Source: a virus. From it: a stretch of 36,790 nt of DNA. The notes below the pieces were generated by a model. It ran no database searches and was not told the DNA's origin. It saw only the letters and a list, made by a program, of their open reading frames with translations. Below are positions 7,723-17,613 of the stretch, in pieces; the first letter of the stretch is position 1; each line of letters opens with the position of its first letter. A program made the position numbers and the translations under genes. The DNA is taken from positions 1 to 36,790 of IMG/VR virus record IMGVR_UViG_3300028198_000008; one strand, written 5' to 3'.

Positions 7723-8649
7723 TCAGACAGCGAAGAGCGGCCCTGCTATCCCTTGATCGGCCATCTCCGCGTACTTCGGGTTCAGTTCGATGCCGACGAA
7801 CTCTCGCCCGTGTCTGGCGGCGACGATGCCGGTGGTGCCGCTCCCAGCGAAGGGGTCGAGGATGGTATCGCCTGCCCTACTCCCCGCCTTGATGCACGGC
7901 TCGACCAGCGCCATCGGGAACGTGGCGAAGTGGGCCTCGCTGAACGGCTGCGGGTTGATGGCCCAGACGTTGCGGAGGTTGCGCGTCCCTGAATACGTCG
8001 CGTAGTCAACCCCTCGCCGGTTCCCCTCGCGTGTCCCGCTTCCCTTCGCGGCCTGCGTGCCAGCGGGGAACGTGCCCTGCTCCCGCACCGCCTCCGCGTC
8101 GTAGTAGTACCGCGCCTGCTTCGTCAGCAGGAACACATGCTCATGGCTCTGGGTCGGGCGGTCGGTGCAACTCTCGGGCATGACGCTCCCCGCGTAGGAC
8201 GGGCAGAAACTCAGTCCCTTGGCCCAGATGATGTCGGAGCGGAGGTACCAGCCATCGGCCTGGAGCGCGAGTGCCACGCGGGCGGGGATCATGCACAGGT
8301 CTTTTTGCTTGAGCCCAGCGCCCTGATAGTCCATCTTGGGCTTATTGGATCTGTAGCGCCCTCCGTCCGCTGGCGCGGGCATATCCGGCCCGAAATTACC
8401 AGCGGGGCTGCTCGCGTAACTATCCCCCAGGTTGAGCCAGACCGTCCCATCGTCGCGCAGCACCCGCCGCACCTCGCGGAACACCGCGACCATCGTGGCG
8501 ATGAACGCCTCTGGCGTGGGCTCCAGGCCGATCTGACCCTCGACCCCATAGTCCCGCAGCCCCCAATACGGCGGGCTTGTCACCACGCACTGGACGCTCC
8601 CGGCGTCGAGGGTGGGGAGCACGTCGCGCACATTGCCTGTATGGATCAT
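7723..8649 (-). CDS. DNA methyltransferase (amino-group, N6-A or N4-C)
   Basis: 308 residues from the ATG at 8649, which overlaps the zinc-ribbon stop (ATGA). Catalytic motif IV is TSPPYW at residues 24-29. The SAM-binding motif [11 protein letters not shown], is at about 265-274, so motif IV precedes motif I: the permuted beta-class order. S-P-P-Y fits both N4-cytosine and some N6-adenine enzymes. A longer start at 8715 exists but would overlap the whole C-terminus of the zinc ribbon. It has no neighbouring restriction gene, so it is an orphan enzyme, likely protecting phage DNA or marking it. It is the last gene of the leftward early operon and is flanked by a 33-bp direct repeat, suggesting late acquisition. 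Confidence 0.9.
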
Positions 8650-8801
8650 GGCGTCTTCCCTCGTCCAGCGTCCCGCCCACCCGGTAACGTCCAGGCGTGC
8701 GAGCAGGTCACGCAATACATCTCCGACCGCCCGCCTGTGACGACCACCTCAGTCTGGTAGTCGCCACACTTGGGGCATCGTGGGCCGTCAAGGGGTCGCA
8801 C
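8646..8801 (-). CDS. Zinc-ribbon microprotein
   Basis: 51 residues with two knuckles: CPKCG near residue 9 and CVTC near residue 29, followed by [12 protein letters not shown] start overlaps the end of the upstream 70-residue gene and its stop overlaps the methyltransferase ATG, so all three are coupled. Probably binds nucleic acid or a protein partner. A truncated second copy of its C-terminus lies at 7668-7700. Confidence 0.75.
8674..8706. repeat. Direct repeat, copy 2
   Basis: Second copy of the 33-base repeat (see 7668-7700), inside the zinc-ribbon gene and coding for its [10 protein letters not shown] segment. The repeats share orientation, so homologous recombination between them would delete the methyltransferase together with one repeat copy. 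Confidence 0.85.
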
Positions 8802-11796: not shown

Positions 11797-12427
11797 GCGA
11801 CAAGCCCGCGACCTCCTGCTGCTGTCGGATGCAGTGGTGGTAACCTCGTCGGCGCAATCGGTCTCCGCGAGCGACTATCTCCAGAAGCTCCAGAAGCTGC
11901 GGAAGTTTCTGGTCGGCATCTACAAAGACGCCAAGCAGCCGCTCGCGCACGCCAAGAAGACCCTCGACGCACAGGAACACGCGCTCGTGGACCCGATCAA
12001 AGCGGTGGAGAAGGAGGTTATGGGTAAGATCCTGGCCTACACCCAAGCCACCAAATACCTGGAGACCCGGCGTCTTGCGGCCGAGACCGACCGGATGCTC
12101 GACGGGGAAGCACTCGTCCCCACGCCGCCCTCGACGCCGCCGCTAACACCGGGAATGCATCAGCGGTCCACCTACAGCGGCACGGTAGAGGATATGGAAG
12201 CTCTCGTGCTGAGTGTGGCCGCGCAGATTCTCATTACTCGGAGCAATGTGCCGGGCGTGACGCCTTGGTACTGGCTCACAACGGTCTGCAAACCCTCGCC
12301 GCAGGCCACGCTGAGTCTCCTGACGGTCTCTGCGCCTGACCTCAACGCCCTCGCCCGTGCCCTCAAGGATGATTTGGATGTGCCGGGCGTGGCGCTCAAG
12401 CACACCACGACACTTGTTTCGACATGA
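11723..12427 (+). CDS. Helical protein of recombination module, unknown
   Basis: 234 residues from ATG 11723, overlapping the nuclease gene by 74 bases; ATG 11768 (MDLRQRPG) is a plausible alternative. Residues about 45-130 are long helices with heptad character (DYLQKLQKLRKFLVGIYKDA, KKTLDAQEHALVDPIKAVEK). Proteins with this K-x-L-D...D-P-I...E...I-x-x-Y pattern often lie beside phage nucleases or RecT/Erf annealing proteins. I cannot assign an activity. After a Pro/Thr linker (about 135-148) comes a smaller C-terminal domain. Confidence 0.7.
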   Translation: MPQITPTPPAPQTLTMDLRQRPGIERQARDLLLLSDAVVVTSSAQSVSASDYLQKLQKLRKFLVGIYKDAKQPLAHAKKTLDAQEHALVDPIKAVEKEVMGKILAYTQATKYLETRRLAAETDRMLDGEALVPTPPSTPPLTPGMHQRSTYSGTVEDMEALVLSVAAQILITRSNVPGVTPWYWLTTVCKPSPQATLSLLTVSAPDLNALARALKDDLDVPGVALKHTTTLVST

Positions 12428-12516
12428 CGCAGAAACACCTGTTTGACTGCGTCCGCATCGTCCGCATCGTCCTAAACACGCTAAAACACGCTAAAACACA
12501 CGCTAAAACACGCTAA
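12424..12516 (+). CDS. Possible 30-residue ORF overlapping the tandem repeats
   Basis: The ATG overlaps the previous stop as ATGA and the frame runs MTQKHLFDCVRIVRIVLNTL, then a basic KHAKTHAKTR end encoded by the repeats. The coupling is the only argument for it. The repeats may be a DNA-level element and the ORF accidental. Confidence 0.25.
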   Translation: MTQKHLFDCVRIVRIVLNTLKHAKTHAKTR

Positions 12517-12532
12517 AACACGCTAAAACACG
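12471..12532. repeat. Iteron-like tandem repeats, candidate replication origin
   Basis: Six copies of CTAAAACACG or near matches: a degenerate copy at 12471-12480, exact copies at 12481-12490, 12503-12512, 12513-12522 and 12523-12532, and a copy with a two-base insertion at 12491-12502. A TCCGCATCG direct pair precedes them (12452-12460 and 12461-12469). The array is noncoding or barely coding, A-rich on one strand, and ends 13 bases before the primase-helicase gene, as do iterons of plasmid and phage origins. Confidence 0.7.
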
Positions 12533-12545
12533 CGCAGGGTAATAT

Positions 12546-14597
12546 ATGACATTCGCTGATCTGCTCTCTCGATTCGACGCGGTGCGGTCCACCGGGTCCG
12601 GCTACAGTGCGAGGTGCCCCGTGCATGAGGACCGCGTCTCTAGCCTCAGTATTTCCCAAGGTGACGACGGACGCGCTCTGATTCATTGTCACGCCGGTTG
12701 CAGTCTGGATGACCTGCTCATGACGCTCGGACTGAGCCTGTCGGACCTGTTTGATGATGACCCCGCGCCTGTGGCCCTGCCCACCCCGAGGCTGACCGCT
12801 GGGTCCAGTACGGAGGCTGTGACCTACGCTTACCATGACCTCGACGGGACGTTACTCCATGAGGTCGTCAAGGGGGCAGGCAAACAGTTCCGGCAGCGGC
12901 ATCCGACCCCCGAGGGCTGGGTCTGGAAGGCATCCGGTCGCCGTGTGCCGTATCGCTGGCCTGAGCTGGTGGGCCAGACCGAGGTGTTTATCTGTGAGGG
13001 CGAGAAGGACGTAGATTGTCTCTTCGACCACGGTCTGACGGCCACCTGCAACCTCGGCGGTGCGTCCAAGTGGCGGGCCGAGGAAACGGCCGCGCTGCTC
13101 GACCTGCACCCGGCACGGGTCTACATCATCCCCGATAATGACACCCCTGGTCGAAAGCACGCTGACAGTGTGCGGGAGCAGCTAACTGCTGCGGGACTGA
13201 CAGCCACGGTTGTGCCGCTCCCCGGACTACCGGCTCACGGCGATGCCAGCGACTGGTTCGCCGCCGGTGGCACGGTCGATGCGTTGCGGTCGCTGGCGGC
13301 TGACCCACCAGACCCTGAGGCGGTGATCGCCACGACCATCGAGGCGGTTGACATACTGACGGCCGAACAGGTGTTCAGCCGCTTGGGTGAGGATGCGTAC
13401 TCCCTGGACTACCCCACGCTGGGGGTGACGTTCTTGGTGTCGCATCTCCACCGTGACCGAGACGACCTGAAGTGTGAGCTGACGGTCAATACCACGCTCC
13501 CGCACGCCCGCACCGTTGACGGCACGTTACTGTGGACCGCCACCAATCTGAGCGCGGCCCGAACACGGGCTGGACTCGCCAAGGGGCTCGCCGCACGGTC
13601 GGGTGAGCCGAAGTGGGATTGGCTATCGGCCTTGGAACGCCTGTCGGTCCTCGTGAGTCGCGCCGAGGCCGAGGGGTCGAGCGAGATCCAACCGCTCGCA
13701 GACTACGACCTCCCCACGGACGACCCGGCCTGGACGATTGCCGGCCTGCCGATCCTGAAGGACCACCCGACGATCCTGTTCGGTGACGGGGGTGCGGCGA
13801 AGTCGTATCTCGCGCTGTATCTCGCTGGCACGATTGCCCGTCAAGTACCGACGATCTTCATTGATTTTGAATTCGAGCCAGAGGCGCACCGGGCCAGACT
13901 CCAACGTCTTTTTGGGGCCGCGATGCCGCAGGGGTTGCACTACGTCCGGTGTAGCCAGCCGCTCGTCACGGAGGTGGGGCGTCTGCAAAAATGGATGCTC
14001 GAATACGGGTGTCGATTCTGCGTGGTGGACTCGATTGCGTTCGCGCTCAATGGCCCGCCGGAATCGGCTGAGGTGGCGGCGGGCTTCTTCCGTTCGCTGC
14101 GGACCCTGAACGTGGGGTCGCTCAGTCTTGCCCACCAGACCAAGGGAGGCGACAACTCTGACAAGACGGTGTTCGGGTCGGCCTTCTATAACAACGGCGC
14201 TCGGAGCGTCTGGCATGTGCGACGGAATGACAATGAGGGGGCCGATTCATCAACCGTCGAGCTAGCCCTCTCCCACCGCAAGTCGAACACCGGCCAAAGG
14301 CTCTCGACCCGAGGCATTAAGTTGGACTTCGCCGGCACAACCACCACCGTTGACACATTCGACCTCGCTGGGAGCGCCGATCTGGCAACCACGCTACCTA
14401 TCTGGCAGCGGGTCAAGTCGCTGGTGTCGCATACCCCTATGACCGTTCCCCAGCTTGCGAGCGAGCTTGATGCTCGACCGGACTCCATCGCACGCACCGT
14501 GCGGAGGATGGATATATTCCGCAAAGACACGTCTGACAGGGTGTGCCTTACTGAGACCACACTAACAGCCCTTGAACCGGACGAAGAGCGATTCTGA
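12546..14597 (+). CDS. Primase-helicase
   Basis: 683 residues combining three modules. Residues 20-55 are a primase zinc finger: CPVH (Cys24, His27) and CHAGC (Cys48, Cys52). Residues about 143-235 are a TOPRIM domain with Glu151 in ICEGEKD and Asp197/Asp199 in IPDND. Residues about 390-600 are a RecA-like ATPase: Walker A GDGGAAKS (413-420), FIDFEFEPE, Walker B-like CVVDSIAFAL, and a LAHQTKG sensor segment. The C-terminus looks like a winged helix (TVPQLASELDARPDSIARTV). It would unwind the origin and prime synthesis for a host polymerase. Iteron-like repeats lie directly upstream. Confidence 0.92.
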   Translation: MTFADLLSRFDAVRSTGSGYSARCPVHEDRVSSLSISQGDDGRALIHCHAGCSLDDLLMTLGLSLSDLFDDDPAPVALPTPRLTAGSSTEAVTYAYHDLDGTLLHEVVKGAGKQFRQRHPTPEGWVWKASGRRVPYRWPELVGQTEVFICEGEKDVDCLFDHGLTATCNLGGASKWRAEETAALLDLHPARVYIIPDNDTPGRKHADSVREQLTAAGLTATVVPLPGLPAHGDASDWFAAGGTVDALRSLAADPPDPEAVIATTIEAVDILTAEQVFSRLGEDAYSLDYPTLGVTFLVSHLHRDRDDLKCELTVNTTLPHARTVDGTLLWTATNLSAARTRAGLAKGLAARSGEPKWDWLSALERLSVLVSRAEAEGSSEIQPLADYDLPTDDPAWTIAGLPILKDHPTILFGDGGAAKSYLALYLAGTIARQVPTIFIDFEFEPEAHRARLQRLFGAAMPQGLHYVRCSQPLVTEVGRLQKWMLEYGCRFCVVDSIAFALNGPPESAEVAAGFFRSLRTLNVGSLSLAHQTKGGDNSDKTVFGSAFYNNGARSVWHVRRNDNEGADSSTVELALSHRKSNTGQRLSTRGIKLDFAGTTTTVDTFDLAGSADLATTLPIWQRVKSLVSHTPMTVPQLASELDARPDSIARTVRRMDIFRKDTSDRVCLTETTLTALEPDEERF

Positions 14598-14599
14598 CT

Positions 14600-15589
14600 A
14601 TGGACATTCTCCTACTGCAACTCGACGGGAAACTCCCGAATCTGGCCCTGATGCGTTTGGCCGCGCATCACCGCTCCCAGCATGATCAGGTCATCCTGCG
14701 GCGATCAGGCAATCTGTCAGCCGTAGAACCCCACCTCGGAGATCCGGCATGGGATCAGGTGTATGCCTCGTTGATTTTTGAGCGCACGCGCCCTCTTGCT
14801 GAGCGGGTCCGTGTCATGTATCCCGATGCCCTCGTCGGGGGGACAGGCTATGACATTGGGCGGTCCCTGGAAGACATTGGCGTGCCGTCGTATGGTGCGA
14901 TGGATTATACCGATTACCCCCGATGGACCTCGTCGCTGGGATTCACGCAGCGCGGGTGTCGTCTCCGGTGTAGCTTTTGCGTGGTTCCCGTGAAGGAGGG
15001 GCGCGTGCGCGAGGAGCAGACGATTGACGATCTGTGGCGCGGTGACCCCTGGCCGCGTCACCTGTTGCTGCTGGACAATGATTTTTTTGGTCAGCCTCAC
15101 TGGGATCAACGGGTGCAGGAAATACAAGCGGGGCGCTTTAAGGTGTCATTTAATCAGGGGATCAATGCGCGGATGTTGACCGACGAAACCGCTGCGGCGA
15201 TTGGGAGCGTGGACTACCGTGATGACTCGATGAAAACGAAACGCATCTATACAGCATGGGACAACCAGAAGGACGAAGCGCGGCTCTTTAAGGGCCTTGA
15301 AGCCCTAATCAAGTACGGCGTGAAGCCCTCTCATATCATGGTGTATATCCTGATCGGGTATTGGCCTGGGGAAACCCACGCAGAACGAGATCACCGCAGG
15401 AAAAAGTTACGCGAGTTTGGATGCATACCCTATCCGATGCCCTACACGCGCACCGCTGAACTAGTGGGGTTCCAGCGGTGGGTGATCGGCGCATACGATA
15501 AGAGCGTGCCGTGGTCAGCGTGGTCCCGTGCGCGGTATCAGCCTGCAAATTTGCAATTGTATGCCCAAAAATCTGCCCTTCCGTTCTAA
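14600..15589 (+). CDS. Radical SAM enzyme
   Basis: 329 residues starting two bases after the primase-helicase stop, so in the same operon. GCRLRCSFC at 119-127 gives Cys120, Cys124 and Cys127, the CxxxCxxC motif that ligates a 4Fe-4S cluster for cleaving S-adenosylmethionine. The first 115 residues resemble a degenerate B12-binding/Rossmann-like domain (MDILLLQLDGKLPNLALMRL; PDALVGGTGYDIG), as in YgiQ/MiaB-related B12-type enzymes. After the motif come barrel-like strands: HLLLLDNDFFG, VSFNQGINARML, IMVYILIGYW. The substrate is unknown; co-transcription with replication genes favours nucleotide or nucleic acid modification. Confidence 0.85.
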   Translation: MDILLLQLDGKLPNLALMRLAAHHRSQHDQVILRRSGNLSAVEPHLGDPAWDQVYASLIFERTRPLAERVRVMYPDALVGGTGYDIGRSLEDIGVPSYGAMDYTDYPRWTSSLGFTQRGCRLRCSFCVVPVKEGRVREEQTIDDLWRGDPWPRHLLLLDNDFFGQPHWDQRVQEIQAGRFKVSFNQGINARMLTDETAAAIGSVDYRDDSMKTKRIYTAWDNQKDEARLFKGLEALIKYGVKPSHIMVYILIGYWPGETHAERDHRRKKLREFGCIPYPMPYTRTAELVGFQRWVIGAYDKSVPWSAWSRARYQPANLQLYAQKSALPF

Positions 15590-15881
15590 TCTCACCGAAA
15601 TTTCGACGGCATCTGCTATGCACGGTGAAAATAAAGTATCCGCTTATTACTCAACGACTTAGGGGATATTCCGCCGCACATCTGCGATTTTACGTCGAAA
15701 AGTCGGTTGGATTCTATCCGCCGACATTGGGAGAGGCGCACCATCGGGACCGGTCGGGACTTTGGTTTGGGACAAAGTCCCACCCCTGAGGGGTTGCACG
15801 GTTACAGTCGTATTCCGGGGGTGACGGTCGCCACATGAGCTACGTGCGTCCAGGTATGTTATACTAGCCGAGGAGGAATAT
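15590..15881. other. 292-base gap with tandem hairpins
   Basis: No convincing gene. A perfect 9-bp stem (GGGACTTTG at 15756-15764, CAAAGTCCC at 15773-15781, 8-base loop) is followed immediately by ACCCC-TGA-GGGGT (15782-15794). Neither has a T-tract. They may end or process the replication transcript or act at the DNA level. A promoter for the next gene lies at 15857-15865. Confidence 0.6.
15857..15865 (+). promoter_or_regulatory. Extended -10 promoter
   Basis: TGT followed by TATACT is an extended -10 box, with no recognisable -35. It lies 16 bases before the ATG at 15882, with GAGGAGGAA as ribosome site between. Likely starts a new transcription unit of small genes. Confidence 0.6.
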
Positions 15882-16211
15882 ATGGACGTAGATACACGCG
15901 GTCTGAAGGTGGGGAACATTAGCGTACCGATCTCGCCCGACATGGCAGCACGGGTCGCCGGTCGTGCGAGCAAACATAAGCAGACACTGACCGAAGCGGT
16001 AGACGCGCTGCTACTCCTGGCGTTTCGAGGTATCGACGCAGCCAGTATCGCCGGCAAAAAGCGTTGGGCCGGCACCACGGCAGCGGAGCGGTCGGACTTT
16101 GGACGCAAGGCTGTGGAGTCGAGATGGGCGAAACATCGTGATTTGCAGGGCGCGGACAAGGGCGGACAAGAGGCCGGACAAGAGCCTCAAAGTGACCAAA
16201 AACCCCTATGA
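15882..16211 (+). CDS. Possible ribbon-helix-helix-like regulator
   Basis: 109 residues. The N-terminal GNISVPISPDMAARVAGRAS followed by TLTEAVDALLLL resembles a strand-helix-helix DNA-binding fold. Residues about 55-90 (IAGKKRWAGTTAAERSDFGR and KAVESRWAKH) are basic and recall conserved short motifs in plasmid proteins that have AERS-x4-A-x-x-RW. It has a strong ribosome site and its own promoter. The C-terminus is polar and repetitive (GADKGGQEAGQEPQSDQ). Assigned only tentatively as a regulator. Confidence 0.65.
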   Translation: MDVDTRGLKVGNISVPISPDMAARVAGRASKHKQTLTEAVDALLLLAFRGIDAASIAGKKRWAGTTAAERSDFGRKAVESRWAKHRDLQGADKGGQEAGQEPQSDQKPL

Positions 16212-17074: not shown

Positions 17075-17332
17075 ATGAGCGACTGGTATGGCGTTGACAG
17101 CGGTAATGTGAGGCGGAGCGTGGAGGCAGACAACCACGTCCAAGCAGCGGTAAAGGCCACGGTCGAGCATATCCAGGATCACGGGCATGCGACTCCGGGT
17201 GTAGTTTACCGTGTTATTAAGGTCGGTGATGCGGATGGCGATGCGATGATCATGCTGTCCGAATTGGTACGGTCAGAGGGGGGGTTCGTTGACACGCCTG
17301 ACCCGCTGAATGAAGGAGATCCCACGAGATGA
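17075..17332 (+). CDS. Small unknown protein
   Basis: 85 residues, MSDWYGVDSGNVRRSVEADN at the start, then an HVQAAVKATVEHIQDHGH helix and a VVYRVIKVGDADGD strand pair. It follows the previous stop by four bases and its stop overlaps the next start by ATGA. No recognised domain; acidic overall. Confidence 0.65.
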   Translation: MSDWYGVDSGNVRRSVEADNHVQAAVKATVEHIQDHGHATPGVVYRVIKVGDADGDAMIMLSELVRSEGGFVDTPDPLNEGDPTR

Positions 17333-17613
17333 GCATCGCTTACCGAGACAAAGTGGCCGGGTTGTTCCGCGCATCGCCGGGCACCTGGATCGACGGTCTC
17401 ACCGTCGCCAGCCGAGGTGGGGCGTATGCCTGGCGCACCCGTGTTTCAGACTGCCGTGTCCAGCTTGGCATGGTGATTGAGAATCGGGTGAGGACGCTCC
17501 CGGACGGGAGGAGCAAGGTCAGCGAGTATATGTACACTCCGGCCGACGAGTTCGCCGTTGACCTCGCGGAAGCGGCCGCGATCCGGGCCGAGGCCAACGG
17601 CGACGTGCGTTAG
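17329..17613 (+). CDS. Winged-helix-like protein
   Basis: 94 residues. KVAGLFRASPGTWIDGLTVA, then YAWRTRVSDCRVQLGMVIEN and SKVSEYMYTP, follow the plan helix - recognition helix - wing seen in small phage proteins of the GG-x-A/YAWRTRVS type. It is likely a DNA-binding protein. It is the last gene of the short rightward operon; its stop overlaps the stop of a convergent zinc-ribbon gene. Confidence 0.7.
   Translation: MSIAYRDKVAGLFRASPGTWIDGLTVASRGGAYAWRTRVSDCRVQLGMVIENRVRTLPDGRSKVSEYMYTPADEFAVDLAEAAAIRAEANGDVR

Follow-up and report, generated by a model that had tools for sequence, protein, structure and literature searches.

Radical SAM genes are well known from viruses, and some viruses carry many of them. 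According to excerpts of the respective reports, one huge virus encodes 15 radical SAM genes (PMC9723712) and two Campylobacter phages encode 11 and 12 (PMC2853527), and a further report, in the part consulted, regards the function inferred for a particular viral gene of this kind as speculative (PMC9301287). The family considered here is already catalogued as phrog_9298. In the literature searched, consisting largely of papers accessible without subscription, no function for this family was found. Described enzymes similar to it in predicted structure include the 1,2-diol dehydratase AprD4, the methyl-coenzyme M reductase glutamine methylase MgmA and the methylthiotransferases MiaB, MtaB and RimO.

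A radical SAM gene of the phrog_9298 family

The window, i.e. the whole stretch of 36,790 nucleotides of viral DNA analysed here, contains a radical SAM gene at 14600..15589 on the plus strand, which starts with ATG and encodes 329 amino acids. The preliminary description had recognised it by a CxxxCxxC motif at Cys120, Cys124 and Cys127, two bases after a replication helicase, and our analysis confirms a genuine radical SAM protein at this position. Specifically, residues 1-285 of 329 match positions 1-260 of 305 in the profile of phrog_9298 ('radical SAM domain protein', PHROGs v4, category other) with an E-value of 3.6e-46, and the three cysteines are invariant in all 92 members aligned. 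We saw no essential difference between the window protein and this family, which has no assigned function. The Pfam Radical_SAM model PF04055 reaches 26.3 bits with the window protein, just under its 29.5-bit cut-off, and is matched at E <= 0.01 by 69 of the 92 relatives.

The upstream neighbour (12546..14597, plus strand) is a conserved backbone gene for a primase-helicase of 683 amino acids, with profile matches to primase (Toprim) and AAA (AAA_25) domains. Only two bases (CT) separate its stop from the radical SAM start, which makes co-transcription of the two genes plausible; a simple scan of 12400-16000 found neither a promoter nor a plus-strand terminator. Downstream lies a small backbone gene (15882..16211, plus strand). 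The region between the two (window:15590-15881) has a low GC content (0.527) and a long predicted hairpin, the folding of which is non-significant against shuffled sequences (z -1.5). GC3 of the radical SAM gene is 0.655 versus 0.72-0.74 for three backbone genes. Among 11 close pairs of family members dN/dS ranges from 0.025 to 0.083 (median 0.059). Judging from these values phrog_9298 is under strong purifying selection, and the protein would be maintained as a working enzyme.

Relatives were collected with a profile from a three-member alignment (A2), since an eight-member alignment (A1) was too diverged. With this profile, 599 candidate stretches of IMG/VR yielded at least 557 relatives and a set of 84,980 bacterial and archaeal species yielded 97, of which 80 were retained from each; a scan of viral contigs with the window protein alone gave no match. 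By tblastn, 14 of 50,697 phage records were matched, all below 60% identity, comprising Bacteroides, Phocaeicola, Oscillospiraceae and Marinitoga phages, Methanomassiliicoccales viruses and unassigned gut phages. One isolated carrier is Bacteroides phage LoVEphage (MW660583). Members are annotated as phrog_9298 in Methanomassiliicoccales viruses, and the label 'radical SAM domain protein' is also used in Bacteroides phages. For 20 relatives from bacterial genomes we looked for a TerL gene within 50 kb on the same contig, which was present in eight, weakly matched in one more and absent in 11; these counts are a lower bound, as one TerL family (phrog_2) was searched. Lentisphaerae bacterium WC36 carries three equal-scoring radical SAM copies on one chromosome (L108, L110, L111), each with a PAPS-type gene upstream. 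Three longer frames of 631-660 amino acids in bacterial genomes (G073:C5, G076:C32, G075:C1:401646-402641) contain a family relative, in pieces or with extra domains.

Besides the three cysteines, the polar residues E133, D159 and Q186 are invariant and K132, N160, R191, D221 and R266 nearly so, in members down to 26% identity. That such diverged proteins share these residues suggests one conserved reaction common to the family. Among the 92 members there are no further conserved cysteines and no Pfam domains other than Radical_SAM, and spore photoproduct lyase gave one weak match. PADLOC returned no match for the window protein or for one relative. An AlphaFold2 model built with the 92 sequences (pLDDT 95.8, pTM 0.90) predicts a Rossmann domain of the B12-binding type at about residues 1-108, a radical SAM barrel at about 109-301 and a short C-terminal tail. 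The N-terminal 'reduced B12-binding-type domain' of the preliminary description is thus right as to fold, with the model aligning over both domains to AprD4, MgmA, TsrM and OxsB, though the cobalamin motif DxHxxG is found in 0 of 92 members and none matches a B12-binding Pfam model. Several true cobalamin-dependent radical SAM enzymes likewise lack DxHxxG.

Empty and filled sites of a single-gene cargo

The radical SAM gene is accessory cargo, passed from phage to phage as one gene on its own. In the lineage of the window virus it is absent from 21 of 22 records with a related TerL, some of which are short fragments. One of the relatives without it, G002 (38,058 bases), shares 89% identity in TerL and 78% in the primase-helicase with the window virus and has the same flanking genes (the small downstream backbone gene is kept at 41%), with a 59-aa ORF in the radical SAM slot. 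A second, unrelated lineage lacks the gene in 18 of 20 records and carries it in two. In one carrier of this lineage, L039, the radical SAM gene is flanked by a 63-aa gene and by TerL, and start and stop codons overlap at each of the two boundaries. In the empty sites TerL directly follows the 63-aa gene at all eight readable junctions (L351, L352, L353, L354, L355, L356, L359, L360), and two other empty relatives have the same gene order by tblastn. The radical SAM gene is the only gene inserted in the filled sites. The two filled copies show a synonymous divergence of 1.79, compared with 0.24-0.90 in four neighbouring genes, and this high value suggests a separate gain or exchange of the gene. 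Two control markers, L030 DnaB and L016 c27, had too few viral relatives.

The insert in L039 (L039:8001-8972) is exactly one gene long. It carries ATGATCG at either end, a sign of possible recombination at start codons through short homology.

The preliminary description had inferred a substrate, and a role during replication, from the position next to the helicase. This could not be upheld, as the slot is empty in the close, full-length relative G002 and the neighbours are quite different elsewhere in the family. Given the absence of the gene from most relatives in both lineages and the one-gene insertion sites, we rejected position as an argument for a role in replication. If a gene enters a phage alone, it probably also works alone, on something that any host provides. 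The pairs of empty and filled sites further indicate that this one gene is worth carrying by itself, and they make a plus/minus comparison of a single gene possible.

Neighbouring genes and a possible substrate

Neighbours were compared across 166 loci, from which ten were dropped because the greedy ORF set held no radical SAM ORF; the remaining 156 were reduced to 129 at 90% identity. ORFs came from a simple caller that did not call frames below 60 aa, and some neighbours and anchors are spurious. Directly adjacent to the radical SAM gene (+-1), DNA methyltransferases occupy 24 of 249 slots versus 7.2 +- 2.3 for random plus-strand anchors in the same loci, and PP-loop 'PAPS reductases' occupy 10 of 249 versus 3.0 +- 1.3. 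None of 2000 random draws reached either observed count. C5 methyltransferases taken alone are more weakly enriched (7 versus 2.9, p 0.0165). All adjacent methyltransferase or PP-loop cases are on the same strand as the radical SAM gene, with an overlap of exactly 4 bases in 7 of 34. A Pfam scan of the first 150 of 166 adjacent genes placed N6_N4 (10), C5 (8), PAPS (8) and D12 (5) at the top, i.e. 31 matches. For 150 of 227 distant genes of the same loci, drawn at random, N6_N4 (2) and C5 (3) were seen among the 25 of 81 families listed. Assuming one further distant match each for D12 and PAPS (7 in total), Fisher tests of adjacent versus distant genes gave p 0.0014 for methyltransferases, 0.036 for PAPS and 4e-5 for both together. 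The link to DNA-modifying genes is a tendency, since a methyltransferase or PP-loop neighbour occurs at +-1 in 29 of 129 loci and within 8 kb in 70 of 129.

Some of the PP-loop neighbours resemble DndC, SspD or BrxP. CGxH is the mark of CysH, and all 25 PP-loop neighbours lack it and have a CxxC pair (L147:5485-6249, L120:9032-10213, L154:7086-7931 and 22 others). The PAPS-type neighbours are for this reason probably not sulfate-assimilation enzymes, and 'cysH' calls in such phages may denote DndC/SspD-like proteins. On the other hand, in a PDB comparison the neighbour at L147 matched true PAPS reductases at 2e-4. Among eight PP-loop neighbours submitted to PADLOC, one matched DndC at 3.8e-76, four matched SspD at E 5e-5 or better and three matched mainly BrxP, one of them weakly (0.0041). 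DndC is described, in the part of the source consulted, as a PP-loop enzyme with a 4Fe-4S centre on three cysteines (PMC10853773).

Our tentative preference, held with less than even confidence, is that the enzyme acts on nucleic acid, with phage DNA or its nucleotides as the likeliest candidate. It is the DNA-modifying neighbours, with methyltransferases of three unrelated kinds (N6/N4, C5, D12) and DndC/SspD-like PP-loop proteins, that favour this substrate. The DNA-related role proposed in the preliminary description thus loses the helicase position as an argument but gains another in this significant adjacency across the family. Neighbours of such unrelated chemistries fit a common purpose, the alteration of DNA as an escape from nucleases, better than they fit one pathway. 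However, the C5, N6 and N4 methyltransferase neighbours imply no common product, no nucleic-acid-binding appendage is visible in the model, and members are no more than mildly basic (median charge +1.6 per 100 residues versus +0.4 for other ORFs).

Also against this reading, the sole other DNA-modification gene found in the window, an N6/N4 methyltransferase (7723..8715, minus strand; PF01555, E 2e-47), is not adjacent to the radical SAM gene but 5.9 kb away. G002 also has an N6/N4 methyltransferase, at 17271-17498 on the minus strand. We rejected the idea that the two genes are linked in the window virus, as G002 has such a methyltransferase without the radical SAM gene. The second-lineage carriers G023 and G024 have no N6/N4 methyltransferase, which likewise speaks against the nucleic-acid reading. 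Across 50 records (67 minus 18, plus L269), N6/N4 methyltransferases were matched at E <= 0.001 in 13 of 27 carriers versus 2 of 23 non-carriers, a comparison that we gave no weight, as the carrier contigs are for the most part far longer.

The adjacency might also have no functional meaning, with unrelated cargo genes gathering in the same permissive regions; if so, the nucleic-acid inference would be undone. The radical SAM gene is itself cargo, and methyltransferase and cysH genes are, according to an excerpt of one report, among the commonest viral accessory genes (PMC9301287). The enrichment, however, is specific to the methyltransferase and PP-loop families and sharper at +-1 than farther away in the same loci, and we regard this explanation, which overlaps with those considered below, as possible but on the unlikely side.

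Returning to the preferred reading, our best guess is that the window gene encodes a self-sufficient, mobile nucleic-acid-modifying enzyme. The gene of this active enzyme would pass between phages as a single-gene accessory cassette. By what is known of the superfamily, a [4Fe-4S] cluster on Cys120/124/127 would cleave SAM with electrons from the host; a substrate lodged between barrel and Rossmann-type N-domain would then react with the 5'-deoxyadenosyl radical. The enzyme would work without a phage partner, on a substrate offered by any infected cell, and the benefit may lie in protection of the phage genome. A more specific proposal, which we consider doubtful, is that phrog_9298 proteins are radical SAM enzymes that work without partners and modify DNA once it has been replicated, as the radical counterpart of the orphan phage DNA methyltransferases that they tend to adjoin, and are carried as one-gene cassettes by phages of many bacteria and archaea that thereby evade host nucleases.

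Comparison with described radical SAM enzymes

Foldseek found one PDB match to the model at E <= 0.001, namely MgmA (9ccb; 3.9e-8), and a PDB sequence search with the window protein gave nothing sensible. The best PDB row with the A3 profile, a designed pentatricopeptide repeat protein (E 9.4e-8), was rejected since the hit arises from a weak 57-residue match repeated four times, with E >10 for every repeat. Among the structures listed by VIA-align, the model aligns over both domains to AprD4 (6fd2; Z 18.6, 295 residues, 3.9 A), MgmA (18.6, 284, 3.9 A), MtaB (17.8, 275, 3.2 A), TsrM (17.6, 294, 3.9 A), MiaB (17.5, 276, 3.3 A), RimO (16.8, 275, 3.7 A) and OxsB (16.7, 313, 4.7 A), and over the barrel only to QueE (Z 9.8) and viperin (Z 9.1). 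The preliminary description had held that likeness to an enzyme with a substrate other than nucleic acids would speak against its reading. The nearly tied best matches fall on both sides, with an aminoglycoside (AprD4), a protein (MgmA), tryptophan (TsrM) and a ribosomal protein (RimO) as substrates on the one and tRNA (MiaB and MtaB) on the other; these substrates were taken from entry titles except that of MtaB, which we take to be tRNA.

The tied top score of AprD4 raises the possibility that the family modifies a small host metabolite, a cofactor or a free nucleotide, as an AprD4-like dehydratase or similar enzyme encoded by a metabolic accessory gene. AprD4 shares 16% identity with the window protein but is longer, with 453 versus 329 residues. 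The compact size of the window protein and its lack of auxiliary Fe-S cysteines and of a nucleic-acid-binding tail would suit such a substrate, and viral radical SAM genes are counted among metabolic accessory genes in the consulted part of one report (PMC9301287). The enriched neighbours, however, are DNA-modifying enzymes, and no sugar or cofactor family recurs among the 25 Pfam families listed for 150 adjacent genes. On balance we find a small-molecule substrate rather unlikely.

Modification of host or phage tRNA or of the ribosome in the manner of MiaB, MtaB and RimO, so as to tune translation during infection, appears unlikely. In addition to the structural similarity over about 275 residues, the window protein has a CxxxCxxCxVP stretch, with a CxVPxxxG after the cluster that resembles MiaB, and 37 of 92 members give weak MiaB/RimO subfamily matches at E <= 0.01 (best 2e-4). 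The score of 16.9 bits is nevertheless far under the curated cut-off of 251. Methylthiotransferases hold a second Fe-S cluster on three N-terminal cysteines and end in a TRAM domain, whereas phrog_9298 members have no second conserved cysteine set for a sulfur-donating cluster, no TRAM domain was found in the 92 members, and the match to MiaB stops at residue 301 of 329.

That the enzyme modifies a protein, e.g. a host enzyme or defence protein, is highly improbable despite the Foldseek match, as the MgmA model matches 1 of 92 members (E 0.0027) and no common protein partner recurs next to the gene besides the methyltransferase and PP-loop clusters (ORFs <60 aa not called). MgmA is longer (417 residues) and cobalamin-dependent, and its NCBIfam model TIGR04014 is absent from the matches of the window protein.

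MiaB, QueE and YgiQ had been named beforehand as points of comparison, and unlike MiaB, QueE and the queuosine-type phage enzymes have only the radical SAM core in common with the window protein, with no B12-type N-domain aligned. The absence of a queuosine-pathway partner, pointed out in the preliminary description, was borne out by searches of the window for QueC, TGT and a PAPS-type PP-loop gene, which gave no match in this possibly incomplete record. YgiQ is a long protein with YgiQ-specific Pfam domains; these were not matched by the window protein, which has PF04055 as its only Pfam match. The thymidine hypermodification pathway of phage M6 reportedly includes a radical SAM enzyme, and the proposed novelty of a radical SAM enzyme acting on the bases of phage DNA is therefore doubtful. 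What is new is the single-gene mobility seen at empty sites and the enrichment beside DNA-modifying genes, in a large family of at least 557 IMG/VR relatives that appears strongly constrained and is still without an assigned function. Should DNA be the substrate, DNA modification would gain a radical-based route that needs a single gene, and where a DndC/SspD-like PP-loop neighbour is present the product could carry sulfur.
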